From a virus, in the IMG/VR virus record IMGVR_UViG_3300032053_000218, positions 1 to 37,790 of that record: a DNA stretch of 37,790 nucleotides; one strand, 5' to 3'. Below, piece after piece: positions 1,127 through 29,601 of this stretch. Below the pieces are notes generated by a model. It saw only the letters and a list, made by a program, of their open reading frames with translations, had not been told where the DNA came from and ran no database searches. The translations under genes and the position numbers were made by a program. How positions within the stretch are numbered: the stretch's first letter is position 1; every line of letters begins with the position of its first letter.

Positions 1127-1148
1127 CTATTCCTCCTTGTATATTTAC

Positions 1149-2541: not shown

Positions 2542-2620
2542 TTTCCTCTCTCCCTCGGCCCGCTTGGTAAATGATACTCAGGACTTACGGCCCATGTATA
2601 TCTGGGGATACATTGCGTTG

Positions 2621-2935: not shown

Positions 2936-2949
2936 TTTTCTTTCCTCCC

Positions 2950-3343: not shown

Positions 3344-3366
3344 GTTTCTCTTTCCTCCTATTAATC

Positions 3367-3394
3367 AATATATGCCTATTTGCTCATTTGTCAA
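3367..3394 (-). promoter_or_regulatory. Sigma-70-like promoter (P2) for the minus-strand arm
   Basis: On the minus strand: TTGACA at 3394-3389, a 16-base spacer, and TATATT at 3372-3367, giving a leader of about 17 bases before the ATG at 3343. It matches P1 over TTGACAAA, AAATAGG and TATATTG, so both are probably read by host polymerase early in infection. The 10-bp TATTTACGGC repeats found at P1 are absent here. Confidence 0.8.
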
Positions 3395-3647
3395 GTCTTT
3401 TCTTGCGTTATTTGAAAATAGTTTTCCCTGCCCATGTATCCCCGGAAAGACTTTTAAAAGAGCGGCCGCGCAGTAAATCCGCCCCGTAAATTCCCACCCC
3501 ATAAAAAGAATAGATAGATCATACCATTCCAGCCTAGAGCTGTTCCAATCCCTGTCCAGCCCTTCCCCTTCACCTGTATATACATTGTCTATACATTATA
3601 TTCTCTTCCCCGCCATAATCTCAATTAACAGGCTGGTCCAAACAAAC

Positions 3648-4096
3648 AGGGACACCGGCTTCCACGAATCCCCCAGGACCGCCCGAGTACCCCCTTGTGT
3701 CGCATAAGACCCAATAGGTAAACTAGAATTATCCCGCATCCCATTCATTCTAATCACGCATTGAGCACGGATGTGATTATGCAAGCGTTATCCACAGCCA
3801 AATCAAATGGGGACAGCGGCCCAAACCCCAGATACCCATATCCCCATTTAGGGTTGTGTGGCGCACATAAGGTGTTTACTCATATGGGGTATAGTTTAGG
3901 CATATGGGGAGGTATAGGAAAGCGTGAAAAATATCAATTTATTCGTATGGGAAACGTGAAAAGAGGTAATACTACATTAAGGTGGTAATAGATGGGGGGC
4001 AGTACAATTACGGGGCTGGATTTCCTGCCTGGATACAAACGGGTAGCGCGAAAAAGAGCCTTTATATGGGTAGGGGGTTAAATAGGGACACCGGCT
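3648..4096. repeat. 13-bp direct repeat AGGGACACCGGCT, two copies
   Basis: The same 13 bases occur at 3648-3660 and 4084-4096, both in the gene-free divergent region and 436 bases apart. Two exact copies of a GC-rich 13-mer in one noncoding region are unlikely by chance. Protein binding sites or remnants of a duplication are both possible. Confidence 0.45.
3881..3920 (+). repeat. Two tandem 20-bp units starting CATATGGGG
   Basis: Units start at 3881 and 3901, each beginning CATATGGGG and containing a TATAG core. A related inverted word, CCATATCCCC, lies at about 3836-3845, and ATATGGG recurs near 4063 and 4286. The arrangement resembles short iterons or operators in a phage control region; the function is inferred. 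Confidence 0.4.
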
Positions 4097-4178
4097 CGTC
4101 TGACACCATGTTTCTTGCTGGGGCGGGGTTTTTCTGGTGTAACGCGGGTTGATTTAGGGGGCGATTTCGTGTTGGGGC

Positions 4179-4208
4179 TTGTCAACCTGAAAAAAGATTT
4201 TTTATTAT
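4179..4208 (+). promoter_or_regulatory. Possible upstream plus-strand promoter
   Basis: TTGTCA at 4179-4184 and TATTAT at 4203-4208 are separated by 18 bases in a locally AT-rich stretch of a G-rich region. It would add a second start about 70 bases upstream of the extended -10 element. The match is moderate. Confidence 0.35.
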
Positions 4209-4270
4209 TTTGAAATCAGTAGTTTGCGTAGTGACGGGGCCGTAAAAGGGGGTATTGGGTGGAGGGAGTG

Positions 4271-4279
4271 TGTTATAAT
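4271..4279 (+). promoter_or_regulatory. Extended -10 promoter for the rightward (late) arm
   Basis: TGTTATAAT is a perfect extended -10 element (TG, one base, TATAAT) at 4271-4279. No good -35 hexamer lies at the usual distance (GGTATT at 4251-4256), which extended -10 promoters tolerate. Predicted transcription start is about 4286, two bases before an ATG at 4288 and 35 before the ATG at 4321. Confidence 0.65.
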
Positions 4280-4320
4280 CAGAGTATATGGGTATTTCAA
4301 CGCCACGGGGTTATAGACAC

Positions 4321-4533
4321 ATGAGTACGGACGAGGGGATTGGGTTAGTTTACTCGGCGGATATCGAAAGGATGACAAACGATGTGGTGTCTAGGAAGGG
4401 TTTGATGGCGTTATACGAGGACATGGACAGTCTGCCGAGCGTGCAGAGTGTATGGCCGGAGGAATTCATTGATATTTGCGAGGCCGCATGGAGGGCCGAT
4501 CTTGATACAACCCCTGCCTCTAGTGAGGAATGA
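4321..4533 (+). CDS. Hypothetical acidic protein, 70 aa
   Basis: First gene of the rightward arm. The ATG at 4321 is chosen because the promoter at 4271-4279 would start transcription near 4286, leaving a 35-base leader with GGGG 10 bases before the ATG. The frame is also open to an ATG at 4288, which would give 81 residues but only as a leaderless message. The protein (MSTDEGIGLVYSADIERM onward) is acidic with a likely helical C-terminus (WPEEFIDICEAAWRADLD). No family recognised. It ends at a TGA overlapped by an ATG at 4530. Confidence 0.5.
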   Translation: MSTDEGIGLVYSADIERMTNDVVSRKGLMALYEDMDSLPSVQSVWPEEFIDICEAAWRADLDTTPASSEE

Positions 4534-4616
4534 ATGGGGAAGCCGATAAATTGGCGAGGGATGATGGGGGCGGTGATACGCCGCTCCCGGATCCCGTTAA
4601 TTCAACAGGAGGATTT

Positions 4617-4979
4617 ATGGATTCAAAGGAAAGCCAGTTAAGGGAATGGCTTAAAGAAATTATTCCCTTTGGCAAAATGGTTGATGGGTATTGCTTGATT
4701 AAATGGGACGAATCTTATCTCAGGGCCCGGCTTTTTACCAAAAATTACATCTACCAGTTGGCGGTGGCAACACTGGTCGATTATCTGGGCGCAACGATGG
4801 TATGTCGGCTTGCCAGGGCCGGGGAGGACTGGTTGCGCGGTAGGGACTTGCCAGACGGTACATTTTCTACAGAGACGTGGAATAGGATTAAAAACGCGAT
4901 TATATCTAACGAATTAGTCAGGGTGATCGGGCAACGAGAAAATATTAACTCGACCCGGAGTCCTGTTTTAACAGGGTAA
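4617..4979 (+). CDS. Hypothetical protein, 120 aa
   Basis: The ATG at 4617 has an excellent ACAGGAGGATTT site and is preferred over an in-frame ATG at 4530, which overlaps the stop of the previous gene. The protein starts MDSKESQLREWLKEIIPFGK and appears helical, with aromatic-rich segments (KNYIYQLAVATLVDYLG) and GEDWLRGRDLPDGTFSTETW near residues 80-95. No motif is recognised. It precedes the head genes, where small terminase subunits and regulators are often found, but it does not show a clear helix-turn-helix. Confidence 0.55.
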   Translation: MDSKESQLREWLKEIIPFGKMVDGYCLIKWDESYLRARLFTKNYIYQLAVATLVDYLGATMVCRLARAGEDWLRGRDLPDGTFSTETWNRIKNAIISNELVRVIGQRENINSTRSPVLTG

Positions 4980-4993
4980 TTTAGGAGGCTTGT

Positions 4994-5137
4994 ATGCCTG
5001 AAGCACTCGAAAGAGACCTGAAGAGGAAGGCGCGAAGGAAGTTTGGTTCAACAACGTCGGAGAGGGCGCGGAAGTACATTTATGGGACGATGAGAAAGAC
5101 CGGATGGGTTCCGAGTACACAGAAGAAGGGCAAGTGA
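4994..5137 (+). CDS. Small very basic protein, 47 aa
   Basis: A 47-residue protein with TTAGGAGG nine bases before its ATG, beginning MPEALERDLKRKARRKFG and ending in KKGK. About a third of its residues are Lys or Arg. Peptides of this kind (with an ARKYIYGTMRKTGW-like C-terminal half) are common near phage head genes; the function is unknown. Charge suggests nucleic-acid contact. Its TGA (5135-5137) shares a base with the ATG of the next gene, which indicates translational coupling. Confidence 0.6.
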   Translation: MPEALERDLKRKARRKFGSTTSERARKYIYGTMRKTGWVPSTQKKGK

Positions 5138-5313
5138 TGTTTAAGGAAAAGGCATCACAGAAAGACTTCCTCGAATTAGAAAATGATTTTTATGAGTTAT
5201 CCAGTCAATTTTCGGCCTTATGTAAACTTCTTGGTGTGGCATTTGACGTGGGGTCATTTAGACGCGCCCATTACGTTGACCAGTCCAAGGACTTGACCGA
5301 GAAGTTAAAGTGA
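5137..5313 (+). CDS. Hypothetical small helical protein, 58 aa
   Basis: Starts at the ATG overlapping the previous stop by one base; MFKEKASQKDFLELENDFYEL is predicted as an amphipathic helix, followed by SSQFSALCKLLGVAFDVGSF, a second helix. No motif recognised. Coupled on both sides with neighbouring genes: the next start, a TTG at 5329, lies 15 bases on. A helical-hairpin protein of unknown role. Confidence 0.5.
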   Translation: MFKEKASQKDFLELENDFYELSSQFSALCKLLGVAFDVGSFRRAHYVDQSKDLTEKLK

Positions 5314-5328
5314 ACGGAGAACCTCCAC

Positions 5329-5604
5329 TTGCTTGGATACGTAGTTCTTTACGCAGTCGCCGCACTCGTAAGAGAGGCCATGGCGATCTGGTATTACCGG
5401 GCGATTTTCGGGGGCCGGGCTTTCTTGGCATCAATAGTAAGCGGACTCATAGAGATAGTAGACTTAACGGTTCTGTCAAGTCTGGTTATTTTATTGACGC
5501 AAACGGGTGGGTTTAAGCGGGCATATCCCGCCACGGCGTATGTGTTATTTGGGTCGGTGGGGGTGTATTTGGGGGTTAAGTTTAGGGGGCGGAGACATAG
5601 GTAA
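5329..5604 (+). CDS. Small multi-pass membrane protein, 91 aa
   Basis: Begins at a TTG (5329) with GGAG nine bases upstream and ends overlapping the portal ATG by one base. Three or four hydrophobic segments are visible: about residues 1-17, 28-36, 40-58 and 68-83, and the tail is basic (KFRGRRHR). This is the pattern of a small inner-membrane protein. I cannot assign it; a holin this far from the lysis genes is possible but not supported. An overlapping frame from a GTG at 5310 looks like a shadow because its composition is Arg/Ser-rich and patternless. Confidence 0.55.
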   Translation: MLGYVVLYAVAALVREAMAIWYYRAIFGGRAFLASIVSGLIEIVDLTVLSSLVILLTQTGGFKRAYPATAYVLFGSVGVYLGVKFRGRRHR

Positions 5605-8600
5605 TGGCTAAAAAAAAGAAGAGTTTGGAAATAGACCCGGAAGCCTCGAAAAGTACGATAGAGGGCTTTCGTGGGGGCATGAGATTGCCCCTTGACAGGA
5701 TAATGGAGAAGGGGACGAAACTGCGGACTGTTCTTGAGATTCATATCAAGGAAATCTTCGATAAAGAGAAGTCAAATCAACGGACTCTTGAAGATAACCT
5801 GACGAAGTGGCAGAAGATTTACTTCGGGCAGAAGGAACCCAAGACCTGGCCGTTTCCGAACTGTTTCTCCAGGGATACTGAAATATTGACAAGCAATGGT
5901 TGGTGGCCAGTTGATGAGGTTCGACCCCTTCAGAAAGTTTTAAGTCTGAATCCTAAAACTAAAGAATCGTCTTTTCAGCGAATAAAAAAAACAATTAGTC
6001 GGTTTGAGGAAAAATTAATAAATCTCAAATCTAATAGTATTGACTTACTCGTTACCGAAGATCATAACATTTTGGCCTATAGTCAAGAATGCGAAAAACC
6101 AAAGTTTATCAAGGCCAAAGATGTCCGCGGAGGGTGGAAAATCCCACTTGTATCAAAATTTATTGATGGAATTAATCCAGATGATATTGACGGATATAAT
6201 CCAGAAAAAATAGTTCAATTTATTGGATGGTATATTGCGGAAGGGTGGACATATAAACATGGGACCATCGGAATCGCACAGTCAGAAATTAATCAAGAAA
6301 AAAGAGATAAAATAGAAAATCTTCTTTTATCACTCGATTTTAAATTTAAGAAAAAGAAGTGGGGATTTTTAGTATCTTGTAAAAAAATTACTCCGTATCT
6401 ACGGGCTTGTTTGCGATCCCTGGGGCACAGTCACGAAAAACACATTCCTCCGTTCATCAAACAACTTAACCCGCGCCTTTTATCATTGTTACTCAATGCC
6501 ATGGTTGCCGGAGATGGTCATATTAGAAAAGACGGAGAAACCACTTATTATACAACTTCTAAAAAATTAGCCGATGATGTTCAGGAAATTTCCCAAAAAA
6601 TAGGATTGCGGGCTAGAATTACCATACGAGATGATTGTGGGAGGGAAATATATACTCACCACAAATATGTTACCCCTGGAATCACGCGACATCTTGGATA
6701 CTGCGTATCCATTTTGAAAAGATCGTTTGCTAAAACCAGAAATCTGTCAAAAACGATAGTTGACTACAATGATTTCGTTTATTGTTTTACGACCGAACCA
6801 TTCCATACTGTCTATGTTCGCAGGAACGGAATAGCCTGTTGGTCGGGCCAATGTTCAAATGTTGCCGTTCCCATTACTCGGTCGGCGGTGGACACGGTTT
6901 TCGTGCGTATCGTCGATGCCATTTTCAATAAAATGAACGTTTGGATTGTAAAGGCGCGGAAGGCCGAATTTATTGATCTGGCGAAAGAGGTTGAGGACGG
7001 TCTGGACTGGTTCCAGAGAAACATCCTGCACCTTAAAAGGAAGTTGCTGTCACCACTCATGCAGGGGTTAAAGACGGGGACGGGGATAGGAGAGTTGGTA
7101 TATGAAGAGAAACGGCGTACGGTATATCGCTATGCTACACCGGAAGAGGAAAAAGACCCGGCCATCCACAAGTACCCGCTCCCCAAAACGAACACGAAGG
7201 GCATAAAATACGTCCAGCAGTTATATGCAGGGCCGAACTTCTATCCGGTATCGAGGGAAGATTTCATCCTGTCGTCGGATGCCACGGAGATTGAGGATGC
7301 CTATTTGGTTGGGAATAGGTTCTATCTGCGCAAAACGCAACTCGAATCCAGGGTGCGGCAGGACCTATACGATAAAGAACCGGTGGAGAAGATTACGGCC
7401 CCGGACCAGTATAGCGATCAACGGAAGGGTCGGGCGACCATTGACAAGAAGGAACTTGATACGGTTCCCTACACCGATCCATACGAACTCTGGAAACTCT
7501 GGTTAAGGTATGACGTTGATGAGGACGGGGAGGAGGATGATATCATGGTTGTCTATCATCCGTCCAGCGGCCAGATTTTGAGGGGGATATACGCGCCCCT
7601 GTTCTCGGGGATGCGCCCGTACACGAAGTTTATCTTCTATCCGAAAGAATTTAGTTTCGACGGCGAGGGTATAGTTCAGATTCTTGAACACCTCCAGGTC
7701 ACTTTAGATACACTGGTGAACCAAATGATTGACCGCGTTACCCAGATTAACGCGCCGATCCTATTCACCAGGGAGGGTTGCGGACTTGATGGTGTTAAGT
7801 CGCTTACGCCGGGTCGCGTCTATCCCCTCGCCGACACCCCCAAAGATGCCATTCAGGAGTTCAGGTTCAGCGACGTGACGATTTCGCTGTCGAATGAAAT
7901 CCAATGGATTGTTTCGATGATGGACAGGGCCGTGGGAGTCACGCCCATATCCTTGGGAATCTCGACGGCAGAGAGGCCGGTAGCTAAGGACACATTCGCA
8001 CAACAGGAGGAGACGAATAAGAAATTCGCCTTCGGAACCGACAACTTGCGCGATTGTATCACGGAACTTGGATATAAAATTCTTGAGTTCATTGCCCAGT
8101 ATCAACCCAACTTTGAATATCACAAGGCGGGCGATAAGGGAATGCCGGAGACGAGGACGGTTCAATTCCCGGTGGAATACATCAGGGATGCGTTCGAGAT
8201 TGAACTGGCGGCTTCCTCCGAACTCTTGAATAAAGAGGTTCGGCGCGAAATCTTCATGCAGGTATATCAACTTCTAAGTGACTTTATGACGAAGATCGGC
8301 GGGATGGCGCAAATGATAACGTCGCCGCAAGTCCCAAGTGATTTCAAGAAAGTCCTGATTGACGGTTCAAATAAGAGCGTTCTAATTCTCAATAAAATTT
8401 TGGAAAATTTTCCAGACATGAAAGATTCCAAAAACTTGATTATGGATATTACCGAGGCGATTGATACAGAGAAGATGATACAGCAGTCTGCGGATATTAT
8501 TGCGGAGAAACAGCAGAAGGCACAGGCACAGGCGCAACAACAGGGTCAGGGGCCGCCGCAGCCGGAGCAGATACCGCAGAATGCCCCACTCGCATCGGCG

Positions 8601-8630
8601 GAACAAATGCTCATGCCGCAGGGCCAATGA
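5604..8630 (+). CDS. Portal protein, interrupted by an in-frame intein
   Basis: The portal forms the ring at the capsid vertex through which DNA is packaged and ejected. Residues 1-86 and 417-1008 are the exteins and give about 678 residues after splicing, normal for short-tailed phage portals. Typical portal segments: WPFPN joined to CSNVAVPITRSAVDT at the splice junction (the PFPGASN-type motif), YAPLFSGMRPYTKFIFYP, GEGIVQILEHLQ, and the long helix VTLDTLVNQMIDRVTQ. The C-terminus is Gln/Pro/Ala-rich and disordered. The gene follows the membrane protein with a one-base overlap and is followed by a small protein and scaffold-like protein, the usual head order. The intein sits in the conserved junction motif, so splicing is presumably required for a working portal. 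Confidence 0.9.
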   Translation: MAKKKKSLEIDPEASKSTIEGFRGGMRLPLDRIMEKGTKLRTVLEIHIKEIFDKEKSNQRTLEDNLTKWQKIYFGQKEPKTWPFPNCFSRDTEILTSNGWWPVDEVRPLQKVLSLNPKTKESSFQRIKKTISRFEEKLINLKSNSIDLLVTEDHNILAYSQECEKPKFIKAKDVRGGWKIPLVSKFIDGINPDDIDGYNPEKIVQFIGWYIAEGWTYKHGTIGIAQSEINQEKRDKIENLLLSLDFKFKKKKWGFLVSCKKITPYLRACLRSLGHSHEKHIPPFIKQLNPRLLSLLLNAMVAGDGHIRKDGETTYYTTSKKLADDVQEISQKIGLRARITIRDDCGREIYTHHKYVTPGITRHLGYCVSILKRSFAKTRNLSKTIVDYNDFVYCFTTEPFHTVYVRRNGIACWSGQCSNVAVPITRSAVDTVFVRIVDAIFNKMNVWIVKARKAEFIDLAKEVEDGLDWFQRNILHLKRKLLSPLMQGLKTGTGIGELVYEEKRRTVYRYATPEEEKDPAIHKYPLPKTNTKGIKYVQQLYAGPNFYPVSREDFILSSDATEIEDAYLVGNRFYLRKTQLESRVRQDLYDKEPVEKITAPDQYSDQRKGRATIDKKELDTVPYTDPYELWKLWLRYDVDEDGEEDDIMVVYHPSSGQILRGIYAPLFSGMRPYTKFIFYPKEFSFDGEGIVQILEHLQVTLDTLVNQMIDRVTQINAPILFTREGCGLDGVKSLTPGRVYPLADTPKDAIQEFRFSDVTISLSNEIQWIVSMMDRAVGVTPISLGISTAERPVAKDTFAQQEETNKKFAFGTDNLRDCITELGYKILEFIAQYQPNFEYHKAGDKGMPETRTVQFPVEYIRDAFEIELAASSELLNKEVRREIFMQVYQLLSDFMTKIGGMAQMITSPQVPSDFKKVLIDGSNKSVLILNKILENFPDMKDSKNLIMDITEAIDTEKMIQQSADIIAEKQQKAQAQAQQQGQGPPQPEQIPQNAPLASAEQMLMPQGQ
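5862..6851 (+). mobile_element. Intein with LAGLIDADG-type homing endonuclease in the portal gene
   Basis: The insert is 330 residues and runs from Cys1 (CFSRDTEILTSNGWWPVDEV, block A) to Gln330. Block B is TEDH at residues 65-68. Two LAGLIDADG-like helices, FIGWYIAEGW (120-129) and LLNAMVAGDGH (210-220), each keep an acidic residue, so the endonuclease may be active. Block F is YCFTTEPFHTVYV (307-319). The C-terminal splice site reads IACWSGQ then Cys as the first extein residue: the usual His-Asn end is replaced by Gly-Gln. Inteins excise themselves after translation; the endonuclease spreads the insert into empty alleles. The coding DNA is much more AT-rich than the flanks, suggesting recent arrival. 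Confidence 0.9.
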
Positions 8631-18645: not shown

Positions 18646-21600
18646 GTGGCCGATAAGTGTTGGATTGTATATGGATTTCTCGGCGGCCTTGGTTGTCCTG
18701 CCCTCAGATTTAACTATTACAACGGCACAAGTTGGGTATTTGATAAAACAAAATATCGGGCGCACTTAACGGCTATCGCGGATGCCGGGGCAAACGCCAT
18801 CCGCAGAATGCCCGATGCGGGCGCGAGAGACAACCACCCCTACGGAAAGAAGGGCCAGTTTTGCGAATATCAGTATGTTTCCGAGAGTGTCGGATGGGAT
18901 TTGGATCATTTTAATGAGGCTTATTTTGATACTCTTGGCGAGGCGATACTTATTGAAAACGACTTGGGGCTGACCACTTTTCAATGTTTTGCCGATAACG
19001 CCGTATACCATCGGGCGACAAGTAAAATATATTCTCCATGGGTCTCGAACAATAATGGAATAGATACCGTTTACGATGCGGACGCCTATCCGTATTTTGA
19101 TGCCCTGATTGATAAATACCTTTCCGAGTTTTCCAGCATGGACGTGGTTTGGGCTGTCGGGAACGAGATGGATAATTCGGGCTTTCCAGCACTATTCAAT
19201 GCAGTCATTGTTCCGTTGGTTGGGACCGGGGTCGGTAAATTAAATCCGGACAAACTGACATACGGTTCGTGTAGTAGTTCCATTACGAACACGGTTAGGG
19301 GTTATCTTGCCGATGATGCGACTAGAAATAAGGTCATCATGGAGGTTCATGGTTGGCCGGCATCCGTTTATAAGTCAAGATTTTCCCCGTGGAATGATAC
19401 GGGAGCAAGGATGCTCTTTAGTGATGATGGGGTTTCTACCGGGGCTTCGGCGTGTGATAAGTGGGAGGCGGGGGCGGCCCCATCAGCCGCAGAGTGGTAC
19501 GATGCCATCTTTGATGTTCTGACAACATACGGGGCCGCAGATGGTTCCGATGACCACATCCTTAATTTTGAACATACGTTCATGTCCGGTTATGACCTGT
19601 CTACAACCTGTCAGGCGGCGACCATCGCCAAAATGAGAGAGGCATACGAGGCATGGGTTTTGACGACTACCGGTCCGCCGCCGCCACCCGGTGCCACGGT
19701 TCCGATAACGCCATCCGGGTTGACGGCAACCATAAGCGGGGCCACGACCGTGACACTTGCGTGGACGGATAATTCTATTAACGAAGTTGATTTCCACATA
19801 GAAAAAAGCACGACCTATCCGGGAACTGCCGGATTCACGCAGATTGCGACCGTCGCGGCCAATGTCGTGACCTATGCGGCGACAGGATTAGCCGAGGGGG
19901 AATCGGTTTGGTTTAGGGTTCGGGCGCACAATATCACCGGATATTCCGGTTATACTAATATAGTTTTGGCTGTCATTCCTGCGGCAGTATCTATGCCAAA
20001 GTCGCCGCAACGCCTTGCCAACCTTCCGTACCCATACGGGTTTAAGAGTTTGGATGAAATCAGGGATTACCTGATTAAACTGCGGTCTAAGTTGGGGATG
20101 ACCGATTTTTCCGTACATCTTGGGGACATCATTACCAAGAGCGGCGCAATGTTTCCCGACCCATCCCTGGGGGCAATAATTTATGGAAATGATGTGCCGG
20201 AGTGGGTTACTCTTTTAGGGAATACAACGACAGAGTGTCAGTTTCTACTCCAGACGGGAACGGGGGCGGTTCTTGGCAGTGCGGCCCCTGTCTGGAGTAC
20301 GACGGCACAACATTTGACCCTAAGCGACTCGGCGGCGGCCCCGTACCTGAAACTAATCAATGCTAGCGATACGACCCGCGACCCGATCATCCAATGGGCG
20401 GTCGGGGCAACCCCGGTCACGAAGTTCACGATGGGCGTGGACGATAGTGACGCTGATGATGCGTTCCGCATCGGCAAAGGCACGACGCTGGAAACGGAAA
20501 CCGTCCTGTATTCAGGCAATACCAACACACTGTTCGGTGAGGGCATTTGTTCAGGCGCGGGAGCTGATCCATCAGCCATGATGAACAGTGTCATCGTTGG
20601 CGATGATGCCGCTCGCCTTGCCGCTGGATATTGGGAAGATAATGTCATCATCGGGTCACAAGTCGGATATAACGTAAGGGATGACTCTACTACGGGAACC
20701 CAAGATGGTATTTGGGATTCTGTTATTATTGGTCCCTATGCCGCCATTGGGGTTGCCGATACACTTCTGGGTATTAATACCGTCATGGCCTTGGGATATG
20801 AAGTTCTTGGCAATGCGAAGGGATACTTTGTTCAAGATATATTCATAGGCGATGCGGCTGGATATTCCATAAACACCACGGGGCAAACCGACGGCGTGTG
20901 TAGGGCCATCGTCATTGGCGGTTCGGCGTTTCTTGGTTTTACCCCCACGGGTGACAACTGGGGAGAAGTTACTGCCATTGGATATAGCGCCCTTTATTCT
21001 TATATTGATGACTTAATAAATAATAACACCCAAATCATATCTATCGGCAATGACTCTTTTCACGACATGGAATATGGGACGGAAAACGTCGGCATCGGCG
21101 CAGAGGTCTTTTATCATGGTGGGACGATAGATGTTGCCGGGGGTACGGCTGGATTAAATTACTGTACTGCCGTTGGGAACTATGCCGGGATTTATCAAGA
21201 CACACCTGCCGATGGCCTGACCTTTTTCGGATACGGGGCCGGGCATGATACCGGACGATATGGATATGTACAGGGAGATATTGTCGCCATCGGGAGAAAT
21301 GCTTTAAACATTATTGCTGTATCCGGCACCCCGTATTTCACCACAGAGAAGGGGTCAATATATATTGGGTCTTATTCGGGTTGGGATATTACGAATGTCG
21401 TACCTCCGGCTACCGGACCGACAGGAGTCAAGGCGGCGGGGGCTGGATTAGAAATAGGTAATTATAGATACCGGACTTCCTTTGTTTTAGACGGCAAGGA
21501 AACAATGCTCGGAAAGGCATCGACTTCAAATATAACCACGACCGCCGGGAATCTCATCATAAATGTTGCCGCCATCCCTGTTTACTCGGGTCCGAGAACT

Positions 21601-22440
21601 TGTTCCGCAAGAAAACTCTATCGCTCCAAGGTCGGAGGTTCACTTTACCTGCCATACTATTTGGTTGCCACCATTGGTGACAATTCAACGGTGATCTATG
21701 CCGATTCCACGCCCGATGCCAACCTAACCGTTGTCGGCCCATCGACAAGTTATTCTGTCGCCATCGGCTATGGGGCGAAGGTCTGGGCGGCGAATCAACT
21801 GGTTGTGGGCGGAGATACGGGCGGATACATTGACGAAGTTTATCTGGGTAACGGGATTGTCAACGCCACGCCCTTAGACGTTACCATCAATGCATCGGGG
21901 GGCGTCGGAACAAACATTGCCGCCGCCGACCTCATTCTTGCGGGGGGAAGGGCCACGGGAAATGCCGCATCTGGCGACATCATCTTCAAGACGGGAGCGG
22001 TTGGTGCGAGCGGGACGGCTCTACAGACGCTTGCCGAGCGGTTCAAAATACAGGCCGGAACAGCCGGGGTGACCACGGCGTATCCCATTACCTCAACCAT
22101 CGCCGACGGCACCCCCCCTTTTGTCTTGGCCTCGACCACAAAGGTCGAGAACCTAAATGCCGATACGTTAGATGGATTACACGCCGCCGACATCGTGGCG
22201 AGTGCGGTATGGTCGAATATCGGGTCGAATCCACAGGTAGGACAGTATCGTATAAAGGAGATGCACTTTAATGCGTCCATGCAAATCGTTATTGTTTATG
22301 ACGATGTGCCGGAAATTGCTATCGGAGACTATCCGACCATTCTCTCCAGTCCAGGAAGCGGAGAATACCGTATCAAGGCCCTTCGACTCGATTCAGGTCT
22401 GCGGGTCGTCGTCGTCTATGACGCGACACCGGAGCCATAA
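18646..22440 (+). CDS. Giant tail fibre: glycosidase-like head, FN3 domain, beta-repeat shaft, 1264 aa
   Basis: GTG start with CGGGGAG upstream. Residues 1-340 look like a clan-A (GH5-like) TIM barrel: VVWAVGNEMDN (N173, E174 as candidate acid/base) and ILNFEHTF (E309 as candidate nucleophile). A Pro-rich linker (343-348) leads to an FN3 domain (about 352-445). Residues 640-915 hold more than a dozen IG-x-x-A/G strands (VIIGSQVGY, IFIGDAAGY, TAIGYSALY, TAVGNYAGI, VAIGRNAL), like YadA-head or chaperone-dependent fibre shafts. A Tyr-rich beta domain (925-1025), VENLNADTLDGLHAADI (1167-1183), and two C-terminal repeats (YRIK...VVYD-TPE) follow. Expected role: binding and trimming host surface glycan. 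Confidence 0.75.
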   Translation: MADKCWIVYGFLGGLGCPALRFNYYNGTSWVFDKTKYRAHLTAIADAGANAIRRMPDAGARDNHPYGKKGQFCEYQYVSESVGWDLDHFNEAYFDTLGEAILIENDLGLTTFQCFADNAVYHRATSKIYSPWVSNNNGIDTVYDADAYPYFDALIDKYLSEFSSMDVVWAVGNEMDNSGFPALFNAVIVPLVGTGVGKLNPDKLTYGSCSSSITNTVRGYLADDATRNKVIMEVHGWPASVYKSRFSPWNDTGARMLFSDDGVSTGASACDKWEAGAAPSAAEWYDAIFDVLTTYGAADGSDDHILNFEHTFMSGYDLSTTCQAATIAKMREAYEAWVLTTTGPPPPPGATVPITPSGLTATISGATTVTLAWTDNSINEVDFHIEKSTTYPGTAGFTQIATVAANVVTYAATGLAEGESVWFRVRAHNITGYSGYTNIVLAVIPAAVSMPKSPQRLANLPYPYGFKSLDEIRDYLIKLRSKLGMTDFSVHLGDIITKSGAMFPDPSLGAIIYGNDVPEWVTLLGNTTTECQFLLQTGTGAVLGSAAPVWSTTAQHLTLSDSAAAPYLKLINASDTTRDPIIQWAVGATPVTKFTMGVDDSDADDAFRIGKGTTLETETVLYSGNTNTLFGEGICSGAGADPSAMMNSVIVGDDAARLAAGYWEDNVIIGSQVGYNVRDDSTTGTQDGIWDSVIIGPYAAIGVADTLLGINTVMALGYEVLGNAKGYFVQDIFIGDAAGYSINTTGQTDGVCRAIVIGGSAFLGFTPTGDNWGEVTAIGYSALYSYIDDLINNNTQIISIGNDSFHDMEYGTENVGIGAEVFYHGGTIDVAGGTAGLNYCTAVGNYAGIYQDTPADGLTFFGYGAGHDTGRYGYVQGDIVAIGRNALNIIAVSGTPYFTTEKGSIYIGSYSGWDITNVVPPATGPTGVKAAGAGLEIGNYRYRTSFVLDGKETMLGKASTSNITTTAGNLIINVAAIPVYSGPRTCSARKLYRSKVGGSLYLPYYLVATIGDNSTVIYADSTPDANLTVVGPSTSYSVAIGYGAKVWAANQLVVGGDTGGYIDEVYLGNGIVNATPLDVTINASGGVGTNIAAADLILAGGRATGNAASGDIIFKTGAVGASGTALQTLAERFKIQAGTAGVTTAYPITSTIADGTPPFVLASTTKVENLNADTLDGLHAADIVASAVWSNIGSNPQVGQYRIKEMHFNASMQIVIVYDDVPEIAIGDYPTILSSPGSGEYRIKALRLDSGLRVVVVYDATPEP

Positions 22441-23031
22441 ATGAACATGATCTGGAATAGATTGAAATATGTTTTAAGTCCCCAATTTGATGTGTATGAT
22501 GTTGTGAAAAAAACCGTAAGAAATAGAGTTGCCGACATAGGCTTTGGAACCGGATTTGGGACGCATCTATTCAGTGTCAACGCAAAAGAGGTTTATGGAT
22601 ATGAAATAGATGAGGCCGCTATCCAGTTTGCCAAGACCGTATTTCCGTTCAAGGCTCTGCATTTTGATTATGGAGATATTTTGAAAGGTATTGATGGTCC
22701 GGCATTTGATTATGTCGTTATGATTGACGTGATTGAGCATCTCAAGAAAGAACGGACGGCACTTGAGAATGTTAAAAAGATGATGATTCCGGGCGGCACA
22801 TTCATCTGTTCTACGCCGAACCGCCTGAGCCGATACCGGAAGGGCGAATGCCACGTTCGGGAGTATGCCCCGAAGGAATTGGAGGGGATATTGAAACGTG
22901 TCTTTGTCTCAGTCAGTCTGAGAAATTATAGGCTTGAACCGCTGGTCAGCCAATATGAAAACCCGATGCTTGCCGTATGTAGAAACACGGACGCGGTAAC
23001 TCAATCTACGAAGGAGAAAGCAAATGGCTGA
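22441..23031 (+). CDS. Class I SAM-dependent methyltransferase, 196 aa
   Basis: A Rossmann-fold methyltransferase of the UbiG/Methyltransf_11-type: motif I VADIGFGTGFGTHLF (about 30-44), acidic end of strand 2 GYEID (53-57), YVVMIDVIEHLKK (91-103) and the post-motif FICSTPN (121-127). It transfers a methyl group from SAM to an unknown acceptor; DVIEHL-type enzymes often act on small molecules or sugars. GGAG lies seven bases before the ATG, directly after the fibre stop. It overlaps the next gene by eight bases. Together with the nearby glycosyltransferase it may modify a glycan on fibre, virion or host. Confidence 0.8.
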   Translation: MNMIWNRLKYVLSPQFDVYDVVKKTVRNRVADIGFGTGFGTHLFSVNAKEVYGYEIDEAAIQFAKTVFPFKALHFDYGDILKGIDGPAFDYVVMIDVIEHLKKERTALENVKKMMIPGGTFICSTPNRLSRYRKGECHVREYAPKELEGILKRVFVSVSLRNYRLEPLVSQYENPMLAVCRNTDAVTQSTKEKANG

Positions 23032-23527
23032 TGCAAGTTTGACTTTTAAGCCTGCTGATATTGCTACGGCGAGTGACGCGGCCTCCAAGGCTATGTCGAA
23101 AATTAATGCCGGGTCTGCCGTATGGGACCTGGACGCCTCTGCCGCCGTGAGTGCGGTTGCGGCTCGGTCTGCGACTTGGGATGGTTTTGCCAGCGATGTC
23201 TCGGATGCCTTGAGTGCGGCTTCCCACGCCCTGACCCACGCGAATACGGCCAGTAGCATAGCGGCGGGACTGCAATCTAACGTGAGCGATGCCCTGAGCG
23301 CGGCTTCTAATGCGGTAAGCAAGGCCGTAAAAGCGAGTAGTGTCGTTGCGGCTCAGTCCGATGCGGTGAGTAACGCTATTTCGCAAGCGACGGCGGCCCT
23401 CAGTAAGGCCACGTCTCTCGCCTCGACCGTCATTCGGACCAACGACACGGGTTCATCTGCCGCTGTTCACTACATCACGCGGACGAGCGCGGGTCTGCTC
23501 AAGTTCATGTATTCTAACGTTCTTTAA
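23024..23527 (+). CDS. Ala/Ser-rich repetitive fibre-like protein, 167 aa
   Basis: Begins MADASLTFKPADIATASDAASKA, a start shared with the gene at 25136. The body is low-complexity Ala/Ser/Asn with recurring VSDALSAASHAL / VSDALSAASNAV units, spaced like heptads, and would form a long helical or coiled-coil rod. The C-terminus (VIRTNDTGSSAAVHYITRTSAGLL) resembles a trimeric fibre tip. It is rich in Ser/Thr and lies between methyltransferase and glycosyltransferase genes, so it is a candidate glycosylation target. Function inferred from composition only. Confidence 0.6.
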   Translation: MADASLTFKPADIATASDAASKAMSKINAGSAVWDLDASAAVSAVAARSATWDGFASDVSDALSAASHALTHANTASSIAAGLQSNVSDALSAASNAVSKAVKASSVVAAQSDAVSNAISQATAALSKATSLASTVIRTNDTGSSAAVHYITRTSAGLLKFMYSNVL

Positions 23528-23546
23528 CCGTCAAGGAGGGTCGGAT

Positions 23547-24590
23547 ATGCAAGTAGTTCATTGGGCATCATGGTGTCCAAGACAATCGGGAATGTACGAG
23601 TCTGTCAAAGATCAAATCAAGTACGAACGGAAAGCGGGGCTTCAATCCGACCTTGCTGAACCAAACGACAAACAAAAAGAGGGGAGGGTCGCCACCGACG
23701 ATGGTTGGCTCTCCCCCATTTCTTGGGAGACGGCCAAGAAAGCTGACATTCATGTTTTACACGCCGCCATTCCCGGCGAAATCAGGAACATGAAGGGGCC
23801 GAAATTCGTCGCCATACTTCATGGGCCGCAGGAACACATGCTCTTAAAGGAATGGGTATCGAACCGGAAGGACGAATCATTCAATCTGCATATCAATATT
23901 CTTTGGAAATACGACGCGACGGTCGTTCTCAACAAGCATGAGTTCGATATCCTGGAACTCTACGATGAATATGGCAGGATTCACTACATCCCAAACTCGA
24001 TTGATCTGGAGCGGTACCAGGGCGAGGAAATGACGTGGAAATATATCAATCATCCGGCCATCATGTCATGTGACGTTCTGAGGATGGAGAAGTTGCCGTC
24101 CCATATTATCTGGGCGATGCCAAGGATTGTTAAGCGGATACCGGAGGCGCGACTGAATCTGTTTAGCCTGTCGCTGGAGCCGATATCGACGTATCGGAAC
24201 ATGTTCTGCCGGAGTAAGGAACGAAAGTTGGAAAACCTCTGCGAGAACATTCAACTTGAGAATAACAACCTGCGTCCATTTATGAAGGGTGCGGACATCG
24301 GGTTTAATAATAACATCAGCGGGATTGCCAGCCGCGTCACGATGGAGATGATGGCGATGGGCGTCCCGGTCATTAGTTATGCAGGCGACTATACGCCGTA
24401 TCACGCAAAGATTTGGGACCTGGATTCTATTGCCGAACAGGTTGAGAAATGCTGGAGGGTCCTAACCAAAGACGGGAGCATTCTCCGGCAACAGACCCTT
24501 CAATATGCCAAAGACAACTTTGACAGGGAGAAGGAAGTCAAGAAGTACGTCGAGTTGTACACGAAACTTCTGGAGAAGAAAGATGGTTAA
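23547..24590 (+). CDS. GT4-like glycosyltransferase (GT-B fold), 347 aa
   Basis: Ribosome binding site AAGGAGGG. GT-B features: KFVAILHGPQEHML (86-99) in the N-terminal domain; the acceptor/donor interface with IHYIPNSIDLERY (145-157), the hallmark of GT4 enzymes; ADIGFNNNISGIASRVTMEMMAMGVPVISYAGDY (249-281 in parts), where E267 is the expected nucleotide-sugar-binding Glu. Such enzymes transfer a sugar from a nucleotide donor with retention. The acceptor is unknown. Downstream, the SAM-dependent enzyme gene overlaps by eight bases, so the two are translated together. Phage GTs can modify virion proteins, DNA or host O-antigen. Confidence 0.8.
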   Translation: MQVVHWASWCPRQSGMYESVKDQIKYERKAGLQSDLAEPNDKQKEGRVATDDGWLSPISWETAKKADIHVLHAAIPGEIRNMKGPKFVAILHGPQEHMLLKEWVSNRKDESFNLHINILWKYDATVVLNKHEFDILELYDEYGRIHYIPNSIDLERYQGEEMTWKYINHPAIMSCDVLRMEKLPSHIIWAMPRIVKRIPEARLNLFSLSLEPISTYRNMFCRSKERKLENLCENIQLENNNLRPFMKGADIGFNNNISGIASRVTMEMMAMGVPVISYAGDYTPYHAKIWDLDSIAEQVEKCWRVLTKDGSILRQQTLQYAKDNFDREKEVKKYVELYTKLLEKKDG

Positions 24591-25143
24591 GGTTACGGAG
24601 GCCGAGGTTCTTTCGCTCGCGGGGCCGAACCAGATATTCGGGGAGTGGAAGGCATACTTACAATTCCTTCAATCCTATTGCACGGAACATAGTCTCTTGA
24701 ACCCGGTCATCGTAGAATTGGGCGCACAACATGGGCGGCAGAAGGCGCACTATGAGCGGTTTCTTGATGCGACCCATATCGGGATAGACATGAGCGACAA
24801 GTGGTCAAAGCCCGACATTCTCGGCAATACGCATGCGCCCGAAACACTAAAGAAACTCAAGGCGTTGCTCGACGGCAGGAAGATAAACATCCTATTCATC
24901 GATGCCACGCACACCTACGTAGACGCCCTCGCGGATTACCTGGTCTATGGTCCGCTCGCGTCGGACATTATCGCGTTCCATGACATCCAACACGAAAAGG
25001 AAATAAAGCAACTTTGGGACGAAATCAGGGCAAGCGAGAAAGACAATCCGAACATGTCATTTGTTGATATCGGGAACTGGGCTAACGGATGGTGTGAGTT
25101 GGGGATTGGAATAATCGTTAAGGGGGAGAGACACAATGGCTGA
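24583..25143 (+). CDS. SAM-dependent enzyme, methyltransferase-24 / cephalosporin-hydroxylase-like, 186 aa
   Basis: ATG 24583 has GGAG seven bases upstream and overlaps the glycosyltransferase stop; a further upstream in-frame start lacks a good site. Motifs: PVIVELGAQHGRQ (41-53, SAM-binding loop), HIGIDMSD (65-72), INILFIDATHTYVDALADY (101-119), YGPLASDIIAFHDI (122-135), the order seen in sugar O-methyltransferases and cephalosporin-hydroxylase-like proteins. The family commonly methylates sugars in surface glycans. The paired glycosyltransferase supports a glycan substrate. The C-terminus has ELGIGIIVKG. Overlaps the next gene by eight bases. Confidence 0.7.
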   Translation: MVKVTEAEVLSLAGPNQIFGEWKAYLQFLQSYCTEHSLLNPVIVELGAQHGRQKAHYERFLDATHIGIDMSDKWSKPDILGNTHAPETLKKLKALLDGRKINILFIDATHTYVDALADYLVYGPLASDIIAFHDIQHEKEIKQLWDEIRASEKDNPNMSFVDIGNWANGWCELGIGIIVKGERHNG

Positions 25144-25660
25144 CACGAGCGCAACATTCAAGCCTGCCGACATAGCAACATCTTCAGATGCGGCCTCGGA
25201 CGCATTGTCCAGGGTGGCCGTCGTTTCCGATGCGGCCAGTAACGCCCTGTCGAAGATCACGGCTCGGTCTGCTACGTGGGACACCAAGACCATCGTCCTC
25301 AAGGTTTATAACGAGGCAAGTGCCATAGCCAGCGGTGACGGCAAGATGTATTTTACCGTCCCTGCCGCGCTTAACGGGATGAATCTTACATCGGTAGGGG
25401 GGCATCTCTATACGGCGGCAACATCGGGGGTCGTCGGCGTGCAAATCTACAACGTAGATTCGGCAATCCACATGCTGTCGCGGGCGATGGAATGGGACGT
25501 GACGGAAAAGGACACGGCAACGGCGGCGGCATCGAGCGTGGCCAAGATCGACGCGGCGGCGGACGGCGTGCTGACGGGAGAGGAACTTCGCGTGGACATC
25601 GACGCGGCGGCAAGTGGCGCGAAGGGACTTGAGGTCAGGCTTTCGTTCAGGACGCCGTAA
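25136..25660 (+). CDS. Fibre-like protein sharing its N-terminus with the 23024 gene, 174 aa
   Basis: MADTSATFKPADIATSSDAASDALSR aligns with the start of the 23024-23527 product at about 20 of 26 positions, then both have a KI.ARSATWD segment. The remainder differs: it has a beta-rich C-terminal body (VLKVYNEASAIASGDGKMYF; LYTAATSGVVGVQIYNV; GEELRVDIDAAASGAKGLEVRL) like a small receptor-binding or fibre-tip domain. Shared heads with different tails suggest both attach to the same structure. Start at ATG 25136, overlapping the previous gene. Confidence 0.6.
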   Translation: MADTSATFKPADIATSSDAASDALSRVAVVSDAASNALSKITARSATWDTKTIVLKVYNEASAIASGDGKMYFTVPAALNGMNLTSVGGHLYTAATSGVVGVQIYNVDSAIHMLSRAMEWDVTEKDTATAAASSVAKIDAAADGVLTGEELRVDIDAAASGAKGLEVRLSFRTP

Positions 25661-25669
25661 GGAGATAAC

Positions 25670-27247
25670 ATGGCAGAAAGGCACTGGATAAACGGTGGCG
25701 TTAATAATCTCTGGGGTACGACAGGCAACTGGTCTCTGACAGAAGGCGGGGCTGGCGGACAGGCTATACCAGTGGTGGCAGATGATGTCTTCTTTGATGC
25801 CGGGAGTCCTGCGTGTACTGTTAACAGCCAAAACAGGGTATGCAAGACCTTCACTGCTGCATCCTATGCGGCAACATTAACATTTACCTATTCCATAAGT
25901 GTATCTGGAAACATAACCGTTGGAACGAGTATGGGGTGGTCCGGGACGGGTCAATTAATTATGCTTGTTGCCGGGACGTGGACATCCAACGGGGCGACGA
26001 TTGGCGCAGACATTAAGATTGGAGACTTCACGGCAGGTACCGTCACGCTGGCAGACGATTTGACAACTTCGGGTGATCTGTCTCTTACCAATGCGACCAG
26101 TACGACGTTCTCCGGAGATTTTCATATTACCGCCGCCACGTGTACGATTACGGGAGGACAAACCGTTACCATTGTTCACGACGTCACCATTACAGGTTTA
26201 ACAACCATTGTTAGTACCGAAGTCCTCGATGGGTTATTTAATTGGAATACGGGCGGTCTTACGGTAGGGGGGGCCTTTACCGGGACAACGCCCATTGTTC
26301 TTACCGGAGGAACGTGGCAAGAAACCTATGTTTGTTCAAAAAACGTGACCCTTGCGGGAGACGTTACCATATCTGGAACCATCCTCTATGCGGCAAGTGG
26401 AACCCCGACACTTACCTATTCATCGGGAACGATTACAACTACGGGCTCCACACTCTCAATCGCTACGGCCTGTACACTCAACACCAACGGAATGAGTTGG
26501 GCGAACATTACCCTAAGTGCCGCATTAACCCTCACGATTAGTTCTCCGTTGACACTTACCGGGAACTTCACCATATCTGCCGCCTCAACCCTCACGATTA
26601 ACGGTTTATTGACGGTGGCAGGAACACTGACTCTTCCCAATGCCGCCGTTACCTTCGCCGGGATATCTGGGTTTACCGTGGGGACACTGACCAATACAGC
26701 AATCACGGCGACACGCATTTATACATTTGAGGAAGCGATCACCTATACCATAACAACCGATTGGACGTGTGTTCATACTGCCGCACAAACGGTGCGGTTC
26801 ACGGTCACTTCAGCCGACGGGGCAACGAAGGCTATTATTACCCTGAACTACGGTGCAACCCAAAAGGTCTTTTTTCTTGATCCAACGAGAATAGACAGTT
26901 CATTGGGACAACCCATATTTAGTTTCACGGGTGCGATAACCGATTCCTATAATTGGTCTAACGACTTGGGCCACGGACGTATCATCCCAGAGGCGGGAGG
27001 CGAATCCGTAACGGTCGCCGGGATAACCAAAGACAACGCCGGGGTCGCACTCGGTTCGTGCGATGTCTATTTGTTCCGCGACAATGGGGGCGATACGGCA
27101 ACATACATAGCCTATGTAGAAAGCGGTGCGGCTGACGGGACATATTCCTTCACGGTGTTTCCCGGCTCGACATACTTTGTCGTGGCTTTCAAGGGCGGGG
27201 CAACGCCCGTTATGGACGTTACGGACAGGACGGTAACAGCGGTCTAA
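25670..27247 (+). CDS. Repetitive beta-structured fibre / adhesin-like protein, 525 aa
   Basis: AAGGAG site; starts MAERHWINGGVNNLWGTTGNW. Residues 40-350 are Thr/Ser/Gly/Ala-rich with short repeating strands (ITVGTSM, LTTSGDLSLTNATS, VTLAGDVTISGTI, LTLTGNFTISAAS, LLTVAGTLTLPNA), typical of a beta-helix or beta-solenoid. Residues about 350-430 form another beta domain (FEEAITYTITTDW). The last 75 residues (VTVAGITKDNAGVALGSCDVYLFRD to VVAFKG) look like a carboxypeptidase-regulatory/Ig-type sandwich common at phage fibre ends. Likely a receptor-binding or surface-exposed virion protein. Confidence 0.6.
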   Translation: MAERHWINGGVNNLWGTTGNWSLTEGGAGGQAIPVVADDVFFDAGSPACTVNSQNRVCKTFTAASYAATLTFTYSISVSGNITVGTSMGWSGTGQLIMLVAGTWTSNGATIGADIKIGDFTAGTVTLADDLTTSGDLSLTNATSTTFSGDFHITAATCTITGGQTVTIVHDVTITGLTTIVSTEVLDGLFNWNTGGLTVGGAFTGTTPIVLTGGTWQETYVCSKNVTLAGDVTISGTILYAASGTPTLTYSSGTITTTGSTLSIATACTLNTNGMSWANITLSAALTLTISSPLTLTGNFTISAASTLTINGLLTVAGTLTLPNAAVTFAGISGFTVGTLTNTAITATRIYTFEEAITYTITTDWTCVHTAAQTVRFTVTSADGATKAIITLNYGATQKVFFLDPTRIDSSLGQPIFSFTGAITDSYNWSNDLGHGRIIPEAGGESVTVAGITKDNAGVALGSCDVYLFRDNGGDTATYIAYVESGAADGTYSFTVFPGSTYFVVAFKGGATPVMDVTDRTVTAV

Positions 27248-27248
27248 T

Positions 27249-28040
27249 ATGGCGATTTCATTGCGGTCTGTCGGGGCAAGTCCGGGAGCCAACTCCTCGA
27301 ACTGCGTTATTACAAAGCCCGCAGGCTTGGCCGTCGGCGACTTCATGCTGGCGCATGTCGTCAATAAGGCCACGAGTGGGACCATCTCAAGATCGGGTTG
27401 GACCATAATCGGGGCACAGTCCAACACGGCGAACTCCCGCTCGGCTCTGTTCTATAAGTTTGCAGACGACGCCGATGTTGCCGCCAGCACTTTTACGTTT
27501 ACCCTCGGCACAGTGGGGCGCAACCGAGGGGAAATGGCGGCGTGGCTTAGCGTCGATACTTCTACGCCCGTCCATGCGGTAGACCAACAGATTAACGCCG
27601 CTGGAACCTCAATAGCCGTTCCTTCAATTACGGTTTCGGACGCACGAAAACTCCTCATCATTGGTAGCAACGCCTCTGGTGGAACAGCAACCGCCTGTTC
27701 TGGAATCAATCAGGTCTGCACCATCACGGATGGTTATGCCGTTGCCTATAGCACATATTGTGCGTTGGCCTGTTTCAGTGGAATAAAGGCAACCTCGGGC
27801 GCGATCGACGCCCACTCGCTGAGCACTTTCACATCTGCCGTTAGTAGTGGTCATGCAGTAGCATTGAACCCGGCGACTTCCAACCCAAAGGGTGGTGCGG
27901 CAGACAAAGATGCATACCTGCGTTCCCTGGCCGATAAGGACGAGACGGGGAACCCGAAAAATCTTAGGCTTAGGTCTGAGGCGGATAAGGTGGCCGCGCC
28001 ACCGACCGCTTACGTGCAACAGGTAATCATGGTGATGTGA
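27249..28040 (+). CDS. Phage fibre/receptor-binding beta-sandwich protein, 263 aa
   Basis: LRSVGASPGANSSNCVITKPAGLAVGDFMLAHV opens a Ser/Ala-rich beta-sandwich; SGWTIIGAQSNTANSRSALFYKFA and MAAWLSVDTSTPVHAVD fit the same fold, which I recognise from many fibre-associated proteins in uncultured phages. The C-terminal tail changes character: YLRSLADKDETGNPKNLRLRSEADK is charged and includes two LRS-x-ADK units. Weak ribosome binding site, so it is probably coupled to the upstream gene. It ends with a TGA that overlaps the next start. Role: host recognition, by inference. Confidence 0.55.
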   Translation: MAISLRSVGASPGANSSNCVITKPAGLAVGDFMLAHVVNKATSGTISRSGWTIIGAQSNTANSRSALFYKFADDADVAASTFTFTLGTVGRNRGEMAAWLSVDTSTPVHAVDQQINAAGTSIAVPSITVSDARKLLIIGSNASGGTATACSGINQVCTITDGYAVAYSTYCALACFSGIKATSGAIDAHSLSTFTSAVSSGHAVALNPATSNPKGGAADKDAYLRSLADKDETGNPKNLRLRSEADKVAAPPTAYVQQVIMVM

Positions 28041-28612
28041 TGTTTCAAGATAATAATTTGGGGCTAAAGCCGGGCGATATCATCGTCATCTGGAGTAGCC
28101 GCTTAATCGCCTTTCTCGTTTACACCGTATTCGGAATCCGTGATCCCGCGACTCATGCCGAAATGGTCTACGACGATCAATATAATATTTCATCCTCTAT
28201 CGGCGGGGTCAAGTTGAGGCCGACTGCTGATATGTTTAAGGCCCGCAAGTGGGTCGTCCTTAGGAATAATAAAATACTCCCGCCCGAAAATGTCCAATGG
28301 ACGGCCAGGGCGTATATCGGATGCGGCTATGATTATTTCCTATACGCGCTTTGGATCATGCGCCTTTCGCTCGTCCTTCAACCCCTGGTGTGGATATTCC
28401 TACAACCTTTCCGCAACTGGCTGAAACGTAAAGAAGCGAAAACATTTGGCTGTTCCGAACTTGTCGTTCAGATACTGAAAGACCTGGGCATTGACACCGG
28501 CATCGACGAGCCGTGCAACGCTCCGCCGGATAACCTCTTGCAGACCGCCAGAAGCTGTATTCATGATTGGGAGATAATTCTAAGTGGGGGGAATTTTAGG
28601 AGGATAAAATGA
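28040..28612 (+). CDS. Permuted papain-like (YiiX/LRAT-type NlpC/P60) hydrolase, 190 aa
   Basis: ATG 28040 is taken (a GTG at 28037 is equivalent). LKPGDIIVIWSSRLIAFLVY (9-28) is the opening strand of permuted NlpC/P60-like enzymes; PATHAEMVYDD places a His at residue 39 as the candidate catalytic base; KTFGCSELVVQIL gives Cys138 as the nucleophile, following the His as in the permuted order. Between them, residues 98-125 are very hydrophobic (YALWIMRLSLVLQPLVWIF), so the protein may be membrane-associated. The reaction could be cleavage of peptidoglycan peptides or acyl/amide chemistry on lipids. It opens a block of four enzyme genes. Confidence 0.65.
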   Translation: MFQDNNLGLKPGDIIVIWSSRLIAFLVYTVFGIRDPATHAEMVYDDQYNISSSIGGVKLRPTADMFKARKWVVLRNNKILPPENVQWTARAYIGCGYDYFLYALWIMRLSLVLQPLVWIFLQPFRNWLKRKEAKTFGCSELVVQILKDLGIDTGIDEPCNAPPDNLLQTARSCIHDWEIILSGGNFRRIK

Positions 28613-29601
28613 ACGATATTATTAAATTAGTCTTTGATCGAGTGAAACTTGACCTGCTCCGCAAGACTGGCGTGGTGGCGGTGGGCATCGGTTATAAAAC
28701 TGTCGGGGGTGTGAAGACTTCTGTGCCCGCCATCGTCTGTTCGGTTATTAAGAAACTTCCGGTCAAGAACATCAAGGCAATGGATCTCATCCCTGTGCAA
28801 ATCGAAAATACGTCCACGGACGTCATCGAGACGGGCATTATCAGGGCACTCGAAGACCGCACGAAACGCTGGCGTCCTGCGCCTGGGGGCGTGAGCATCG
28901 GGCATGAGAAGATCACGGCTGGCACCTTGGGTTGCCTTGTGGAGAAAGGCGGCAAAAAATACATCCTTTCCAACAATCATGTGCTGGCGAACATGAACGA
29001 GGGGGCTATCGGGGATGCGATTCTACAACCCGGGGCGTATGACGGGGGCACATTCCCTTATGACAGGATCGCCACCCTCGCGGAGTTCGTCAAGATCAAC
29101 TTCATCGGGGGGGATGGGTGCGGTATAAGCAAGGCGATAACAAAAGCGCTGAACTTCATCACCAAGTCCATCAAGAGCGGATCGAGGTTTGCCACGTCGA
29201 GGGCAGAACTCCCGGAAAATCGGGTCGATGCGGCCATCGCGGAACCCCTGGACGCGAGCTGGGTCCTGGACGAAATTCTTGAAATCGGCAAACTGCTGGG
29301 TATCGGCGAGGCGACGCTTGGTCTCGGCGTGAAGAAATCCGGGCGCACTTCCGGACTCACTCACGGAACCATCGACGTTATGAACGTGGCGGTCCAGGTC
29401 CAATACGGCGACACGAAAATCGCCTACTTCGTCGACCAGTTACAAGCGGGTGCCATGAGCGAAGGCGGGGATTCCGGGTCGGCTGTCGTCGATAACGAGA
29501 ATCGCCTTATTGGGCTTTTGTTCGCTGGGTCAGATGCGACCACGATCATCAATCCCATCGGTGAGGTGTTCTCAGCACTTAAACTCGATCCGTGGAGATA
29601 G
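28609..29601 (+). CDS. Trypsin-like serine protease, 330 aa
   Basis: A chymotrypsin-fold protease with a complete triad: KKYILSNNHVLAN (H124), NRVDAAIA (D207), SEGGDSGSAVVD (S289). GVVAVGIGYKTVGGVKTSVP (21-40) and AGTLGCLVEKGGK (104-116) fit bacterial Nal1-like proteases that begin with a GVxGVGIGxK segment, and KKSGRTSGLTHGTI (242-255) is the strand typical of that group. No signal peptide: the N-terminus is MNDIIKLVFDRVKLDL. Target unknown: prohead or virion maturation, host protein cleavage or cell-surface proteins. An AGGAGGATAAA site; overlaps the previous stop by four bases. Confidence 0.85.
   Translation: MNDIIKLVFDRVKLDLLRKTGVVAVGIGYKTVGGVKTSVPAIVCSVIKKLPVKNIKAMDLIPVQIENTSTDVIETGIIRALEDRTKRWRPAPGGVSIGHEKITAGTLGCLVEKGGKKYILSNNHVLANMNEGAIGDAILQPGAYDGGTFPYDRIATLAEFVKINFIGGDGCGISKAITKALNFITKSIKSGSRFATSRAELPENRVDAAIAEPLDASWVLDEILEIGKLLGIGEATLGLGVKKSGRTSGLTHGTIDVMNVAVQVQYGDTKIAYFVDQLQAGAMSEGGDSGSAVVDNENRLIGLLFAGSDATTIINPIGEVFSALKLDPWR

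Follow-up and report, generated by a model that had tools for sequence, protein, structure and literature searches.

Glycosylation of virion proteins has been published for the mycobacteriophages Che8 and Rita (Freeman et al., 2023, as cited in PMC11256854), where the proteins of the virion itself are the presumed targets of phage-encoded glycosyltransferases. In that system capsid proteins of cultured phages are glycosylated, and in the related phage Maravista the glycosyltransferase genes lie near the 3' end of the genome. The locus analysed here resembles this system in a phage-encoded glycosyltransferase that may modify virion proteins, but differs in that the glycosyltransferase is linked with stalk proteins and methyltransferases and moves between unrelated phages; the account given here draws on sequence and predicted structure. 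An earlier note on this DNA had called a methylated-sugar coat on a phage fibre little-described, which is fair for methylated sugars on fibres; virion glycosylation as such is published for mycobacteriophages.

Two other systems offer a comparison. SdgA and SdgB O-glycosylate serine-aspartate repeat adhesins, SdgB targeting DSD repeats (PMC8561734). The likeness lies in a GT-B enzyme that occurs with a Ser-rich, extended protein containing Ser-Asp pairs, and SdgA was the best NCBIfam match of the window glycosyltransferase (E 6.7e-7); however, this match is far under the model cut-off (28.2 bits vs 800), the Ser-Asp pairs here are only mildly enriched and set in heptads, and methyltransferases are present in addition. 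MycE, MycF, SpnH and SpnK have the same fold as the second methyltransferase of the locus and are among its best structural matches, but these enzymes methylate macrolide sugars, and the phage protein is just 12-14% identical to them and shorter than MycE and SpnK.

Gene content and layout of the locus

The window, which is the whole stretch of DNA analysed (37,790 bases, a virus record from IMG/VR), carries portal, capsid and tail-tubular-like genes. Its portal gene (5604-8630) has an in-frame insert of about 330 residues (about amino acids 88-416) with intein-like sequence, which is missing from the near relatives G007 and G008 and the distant relative G010. All genes of the locus are on the plus strand. 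The large fibre gene fib18646 (18646-22440) ends in a C-terminal tag (22204-22440), an element of about 30 amino acids that several distinct fibre-like proteins have in common at their ends and that is present here as two tandem copies of about 35 amino acids with the final residues ...YRIKALRLDSGLRVVVVYDATPEP. It is followed by MT1 (22441-23031), predicted to encode a class I SAM-dependent methyltransferase of 196 amino acids, and by coilA (23024-23527), a Ser/Ala-rich heptad stalk with the conserved N-terminal motif MADxSxTFKPAD / SFDPA and, at its own C terminus, an element related to the tag. The next genes are GT4 (23547-24590), a putative soluble GT-B glycosyltransferase, MT2 (24583-25143), a Methyltransf_24-type methyltransferase, and coilB (25136-25660), which has the coilA-type N-terminal motif, a short stalk and a C-terminal domain unlike that of coilA. 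For MT2, a start at 24583 was adopted and the one at 24505, where the mechanically called ORF begins, was rejected. Downstream lie a Thr-rich (19%) fibre-like protein (25670-27247), which in the G001/G004 group moved together with the cassette but also occurs without it, and the fibre-like protein fib27249 (27249-28040), with which the contiguous transferred block ends.

The earlier note had listed five genes here, for a methyltransferase, a GT4-like enzyme, a second SAM-dependent enzyme and two fibre-like proteins, and all were confirmed. Their translational coupling, which had also been proposed, is real at most junctions, since 8-nt overlaps join MT1 to coilA, GT4 to MT2 and MT2 to coilB, and fib18646 abuts MT1; it does not extend to coilA and GT4, which are separated by a 19-nt gap, GT4 being preceded by its own ribosome-binding site (AAGGAGGG). 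No transmembrane or strongly hydrophobic segments were found in the cassette proteins.

Predicted enzymes of the cassette

The GT4 product matched Pfam Glyco_transf_4 with an E-value of 9e-5 and 22.9 bits, under the curated cut-off of 28.5, and Glycos_transf_1 with 16.3 bits, under the cut-off of 26.4. A profile search with GT4 found no PDB sequence relatives, and across the GT4 family the NCBIfam models BshA and TIGR04157 were matched by more members than SdgA. The AlphaFold2 model of the protein showed a GT-B two-domain fold across the whole chain (mean pLDDT 66, pTM 0.72), with a best structural match of Z 22.7 over about 295 residues. A second look placed BshA, TarM, PimA and others at Z about 20-23 and SdgB at 19.6, and the GT-B matches also included T4 alpha-glucosyltransferase; PimA, BshA and PglA, to which GT4 is similar, are soluble glycan-building glycosyltransferases. 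The catalytic motif of GT4-like GT-B enzymes, EX7E, is incomplete: among 11 aligned sequences E267 is invariant and the first Glu is replaced by an invariant Gly259. Activity is therefore not guaranteed, and because of this loss and the Pfam scores under cut-off the enzyme is named GT4-like and is not filed as GT4.

MT1 matched Pfam Methyltransf_31 (E 2.9e-12) as well as Methyltransf_11, 12, 23 and 25, all above the cut-offs, its relatives being generic methyltransferases only. MT2 scored 22.1 bits against Methyltransf_24, below the cut-off of 26.3, but its homologues on the contigs L034 (63.2 bits) and L002 (32.0 bits) exceeded it, and the family was matched by all seven aligned MT2 homologues. 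A profile search with MT2 gave no PDB sequence relatives of note. The top structural match of the MT2 model (pLDDT 79) was MycE, with SpnH, MycF and SpnK close, and among the matches of this model the RNA methyltransferases TrmR and FtsJ tied with the sugar O-methyltransferases (Z 14.6-15.4). As predicted folds, GT-B and class I give no substrate, donor or acceptor identity.

Strong purifying selection was indicated for GT4 by a dN/dS of about 0.05 against two homologues; values were 0.06-0.16 for the two methyltransferases and 0.08-0.24 for the stalks. In some of the pairs compared, synonymous changes approached or reached saturation. These low values argue that all are maintained proteins.

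Mobility and distribution across phage backgrounds

A scan with GT4 revealed close homologues (93-95% identity) on contigs of quite different phages. Between the window and the siphovirus G001, a single DNA match (77.6% nucleotide identity) spans 22442-28040, from the start codon of MT1, which lies at 8890-9480 of L002 in G001, through the end of fib27249. A second match (20428-22090, 75.8%) falls inside the large fibre gene, and no other was found among the G001 pieces compared. Outside the cassette, just two of 40 window ORFs have homologues in G001, one being the central part of the fibre, and the cassette lies directly after the capsid-region genes in G001 and among fibre genes in the window. 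By contrast, G007 and G008 are near relatives of the window phage, with major capsid proteins 85-87% identical and many other structural genes higher, and lack the cassette between conserved flanks, other genes separating the fibre and peptidase genes there; the cassette is thus accessory. A trypsin-like protease gene (28609-29601) with a strong phrog_20754 match lies in the variable region of the window and was not seen in G007 or G008.

Loci confirmed with family alignments numbered 15 for GT4 and 22 for MT1, the weakest loci in both sets being no more than distant relatives. Relatives came from one viral collection, so all counts are lower bounds; the contigs are fragments, in which absences near contig ends were left uncounted and gene calls were mechanical. 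Delimited by genes outside the cassette, about eight backgrounds were recognised: the window; G001/G004/L062/L067; L047; L006; L051; L042/L055/L057; L059; and L060/L076. The core that recurs in them consists of the tag-ended fibre protein, MT1, coilA and GT4, mostly with no other common gene. Window ORFs outside the cassette have homologues only in G001 (the two above) and L047 (two, one being the tag), and there are a few other single-ORF links between backgrounds, for example L047-L062 and L051-L059.

The usual order opens with a tag-ended short protein (the large fibre in the window) and continues with MT1, coilA and GT4. After GT4 one further gene may be present (MT2 in the window and in G001/G004), and in most cases a coilB-like protein follows. 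In seven of the eight backgrounds coilA is immediately 5' of GT4, the L006 contig starting inside coilA. MT1 homologues are 44-80% identical, and GT4 adjoins them on every contig that extends far enough; MT1 is found just upstream of GT4 in every testable locus except L047, which has no MT1 upstream of coilA. In L060 and L076 GT4 is directly beside MT1, a recognisable coilA is missing and head genes adjoin. GT4 is found among virion genes in the testable loci, beside either coilA or, in these two, MT1. On L059, a collagen-like repeat protein of 1694 amino acids (853-5937; GTSGYSGPSG-type) adjoins a cassette of the same type.

All six loci confirmed in the coilA scan, and all eight confirmed when viral contigs were scanned with the tag alignment, were on contigs with cassette genes; because these scans reach close relatives only, this is linkage at that depth and not proof of exclusivity. 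A search of 50,697 cultured-phage records for GT4, coilB and the capsid protein found no relatives. The sole genome match, L042, lies in a Deltaproteobacteria MAG and may be a binned phage contig. The low dN/dS of GT4 and the recurrence of the MT1-coilA-GT4 order in unrelated phages argue against a chance assembly, and these sequence comparisons indicate that the genes have been handed on as one block between uncultured phages that are otherwise unrelated.

In these phages, genes for sugar modification repeatedly occur next to structural genes. Downstream of the cassette, G001 has a second sugar-type set (L002 17224-20938) with a DegT aminotransferase, an acetyltransferase, a weak GT2-like gene and a Methyltransf_24 enzyme. 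In the distant relative G010, weak GT2-like genes, a sulfotransferase-like gene and a Methyltransf_24 gene follow shortly after the capsid gene (L034 1243-5020), and another distant relative, G011, has weak GT2-like genes just after its capsid gene, recognised by their likeness to those of G010, which the Pfam scan covered.

Candidate acceptors and proposed function

Ser makes up 19% and Ala 26% of coilA. In all six coilA proteins tested, which came from five backgrounds, Ser recurred with a period of 3.5 residues (0 of 1000 shuffles each), and in most of them hydrophobic residues were likewise near this period, their sequences differing otherwise. This is what a coiled-coil stalk bearing a stripe of serines should show, although the stripe could merely reflect polar coiled-coil packing. 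Ser-Asp dipeptides numbered 5 in coilA vs 2.0 expected (p 0.027) and were enriched in several, not all, homologues.

We favour, with a probability of roughly 0.55, the reading that this is a mobile cassette for virion modification, whose enzymes glycosylate and methylate the stalks or fibres encoded with them, because of the co-inheritance of the enzymes with stalks, the late virion position and the soluble enzymes. Further points in its favour are the accessory status of the cassette, the low dN/dS values, the serine periodicity of coilA, the weak SdgA match of GT4, the sugar O-methyltransferases among the structural neighbours of MT2, and the weak GT2-like genes after the capsid gene in G010 and G011. 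We infer enzyme activity, acceptor, order of steps and biological benefit as follows. Late in infection, the tag-ended fibre, coilA and coilB would be produced together with the co-translated soluble enzymes, which would act in the cytoplasm while virions are being assembled or earlier. With a nucleotide sugar as donor, GT4 would glycosylate the fibre proteins, most likely at Ser/Thr residues in the Ser-striped stalk. The sugar would be methylated by MT1 and MT2, the latter resembling metal-dependent sugar O-methyltransferases. The outcome would be a short, glycosylated and methylated fibre coat that may alter adsorption, stability or recognition by others. The suggestion of the earlier note that the enzymes act on these proteins gains from the co-inheritance of enzymes, stalks and tag fibre in the virion region; it is weakened by L060 and L076, which keep MT1-GT4 without coilA, so that coilA is not the sole possible acceptor and stands as a candidate only.

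The main alternative, though unlikely, is that GT4 and the methyltransferases change LPS or capsule precursors of the host and thereby keep the same or other phages from binding to the infected cell or lysogen, the fibre genes moving with them through co-selection of receptor-binding with receptor-masking genes. The likeness of GT4 to soluble glycan-building enzymes would suit this, as would the exchange of part of the large fibre gene with the same siphovirus G001, and an integrase in G007 makes a temperate lifestyle plausible. Yet the genes sit in the late virion operon, coupled to stalk genes, their location varies from phage to phage but is always beside structural genes, and the coilA-GT4 linkage persists across unrelated phages. 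Gtr-type seroconversion or superinfection-exclusion clusters, moreover, have membrane flippase or transferase subunits, and such subunits are absent from the cassette, in whose proteins no strongly hydrophobic segment was detected.

Rather improbable, too, is that the acceptor is another virion protein, the major capsid or a decoration protein, and that the stalks have an anchoring or adhesive role independent of the modification. The block follows the capsid gene in G001-type phages, MT1-GT4 follow head genes in L060 and L076, and the published mycobacteriophage glycosylation is on the major capsid protein (PMC11256854); however, the linkage is mostly with coilA and the tag protein, and capsid and other genes differ among the phages that have these enzymes in common. 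That the enzymes glycosylate or methylate phage DNA or RNA to protect it from restriction, to which T4 alpha-glucosyltransferase and the several RNA methyltransferases among the structural neighbours might point, is very improbable, as the genes are coupled to stalk genes and a thymidylate-synthase family gene, which a hydroxymethyl-pyrimidine pathway should include, was not found in the window or in five related records, which may be incomplete.

Within the favoured reading of own-virion modification, a more specific version is put forward tentatively: a mobile "glyco-stalk" module, in which the glycosyltransferase would add sugars to the Ser stripe of its own stalks, the methyltransferases would cap these sugars, and the tag, possibly a foldon-like trimerisation element, would drive assembly, the module being exchanged between unrelated phages with common hosts. 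If modification of the phage's own fibres is true, fibre glycosylation and methylation would be an exchangeable trait of uncultured phages and not a peculiarity of mycobacteriophages, and one glycosyltransferase, two methyltransferases and two small stalks would provide a compact, testable set for how and why phages decorate their own surface.
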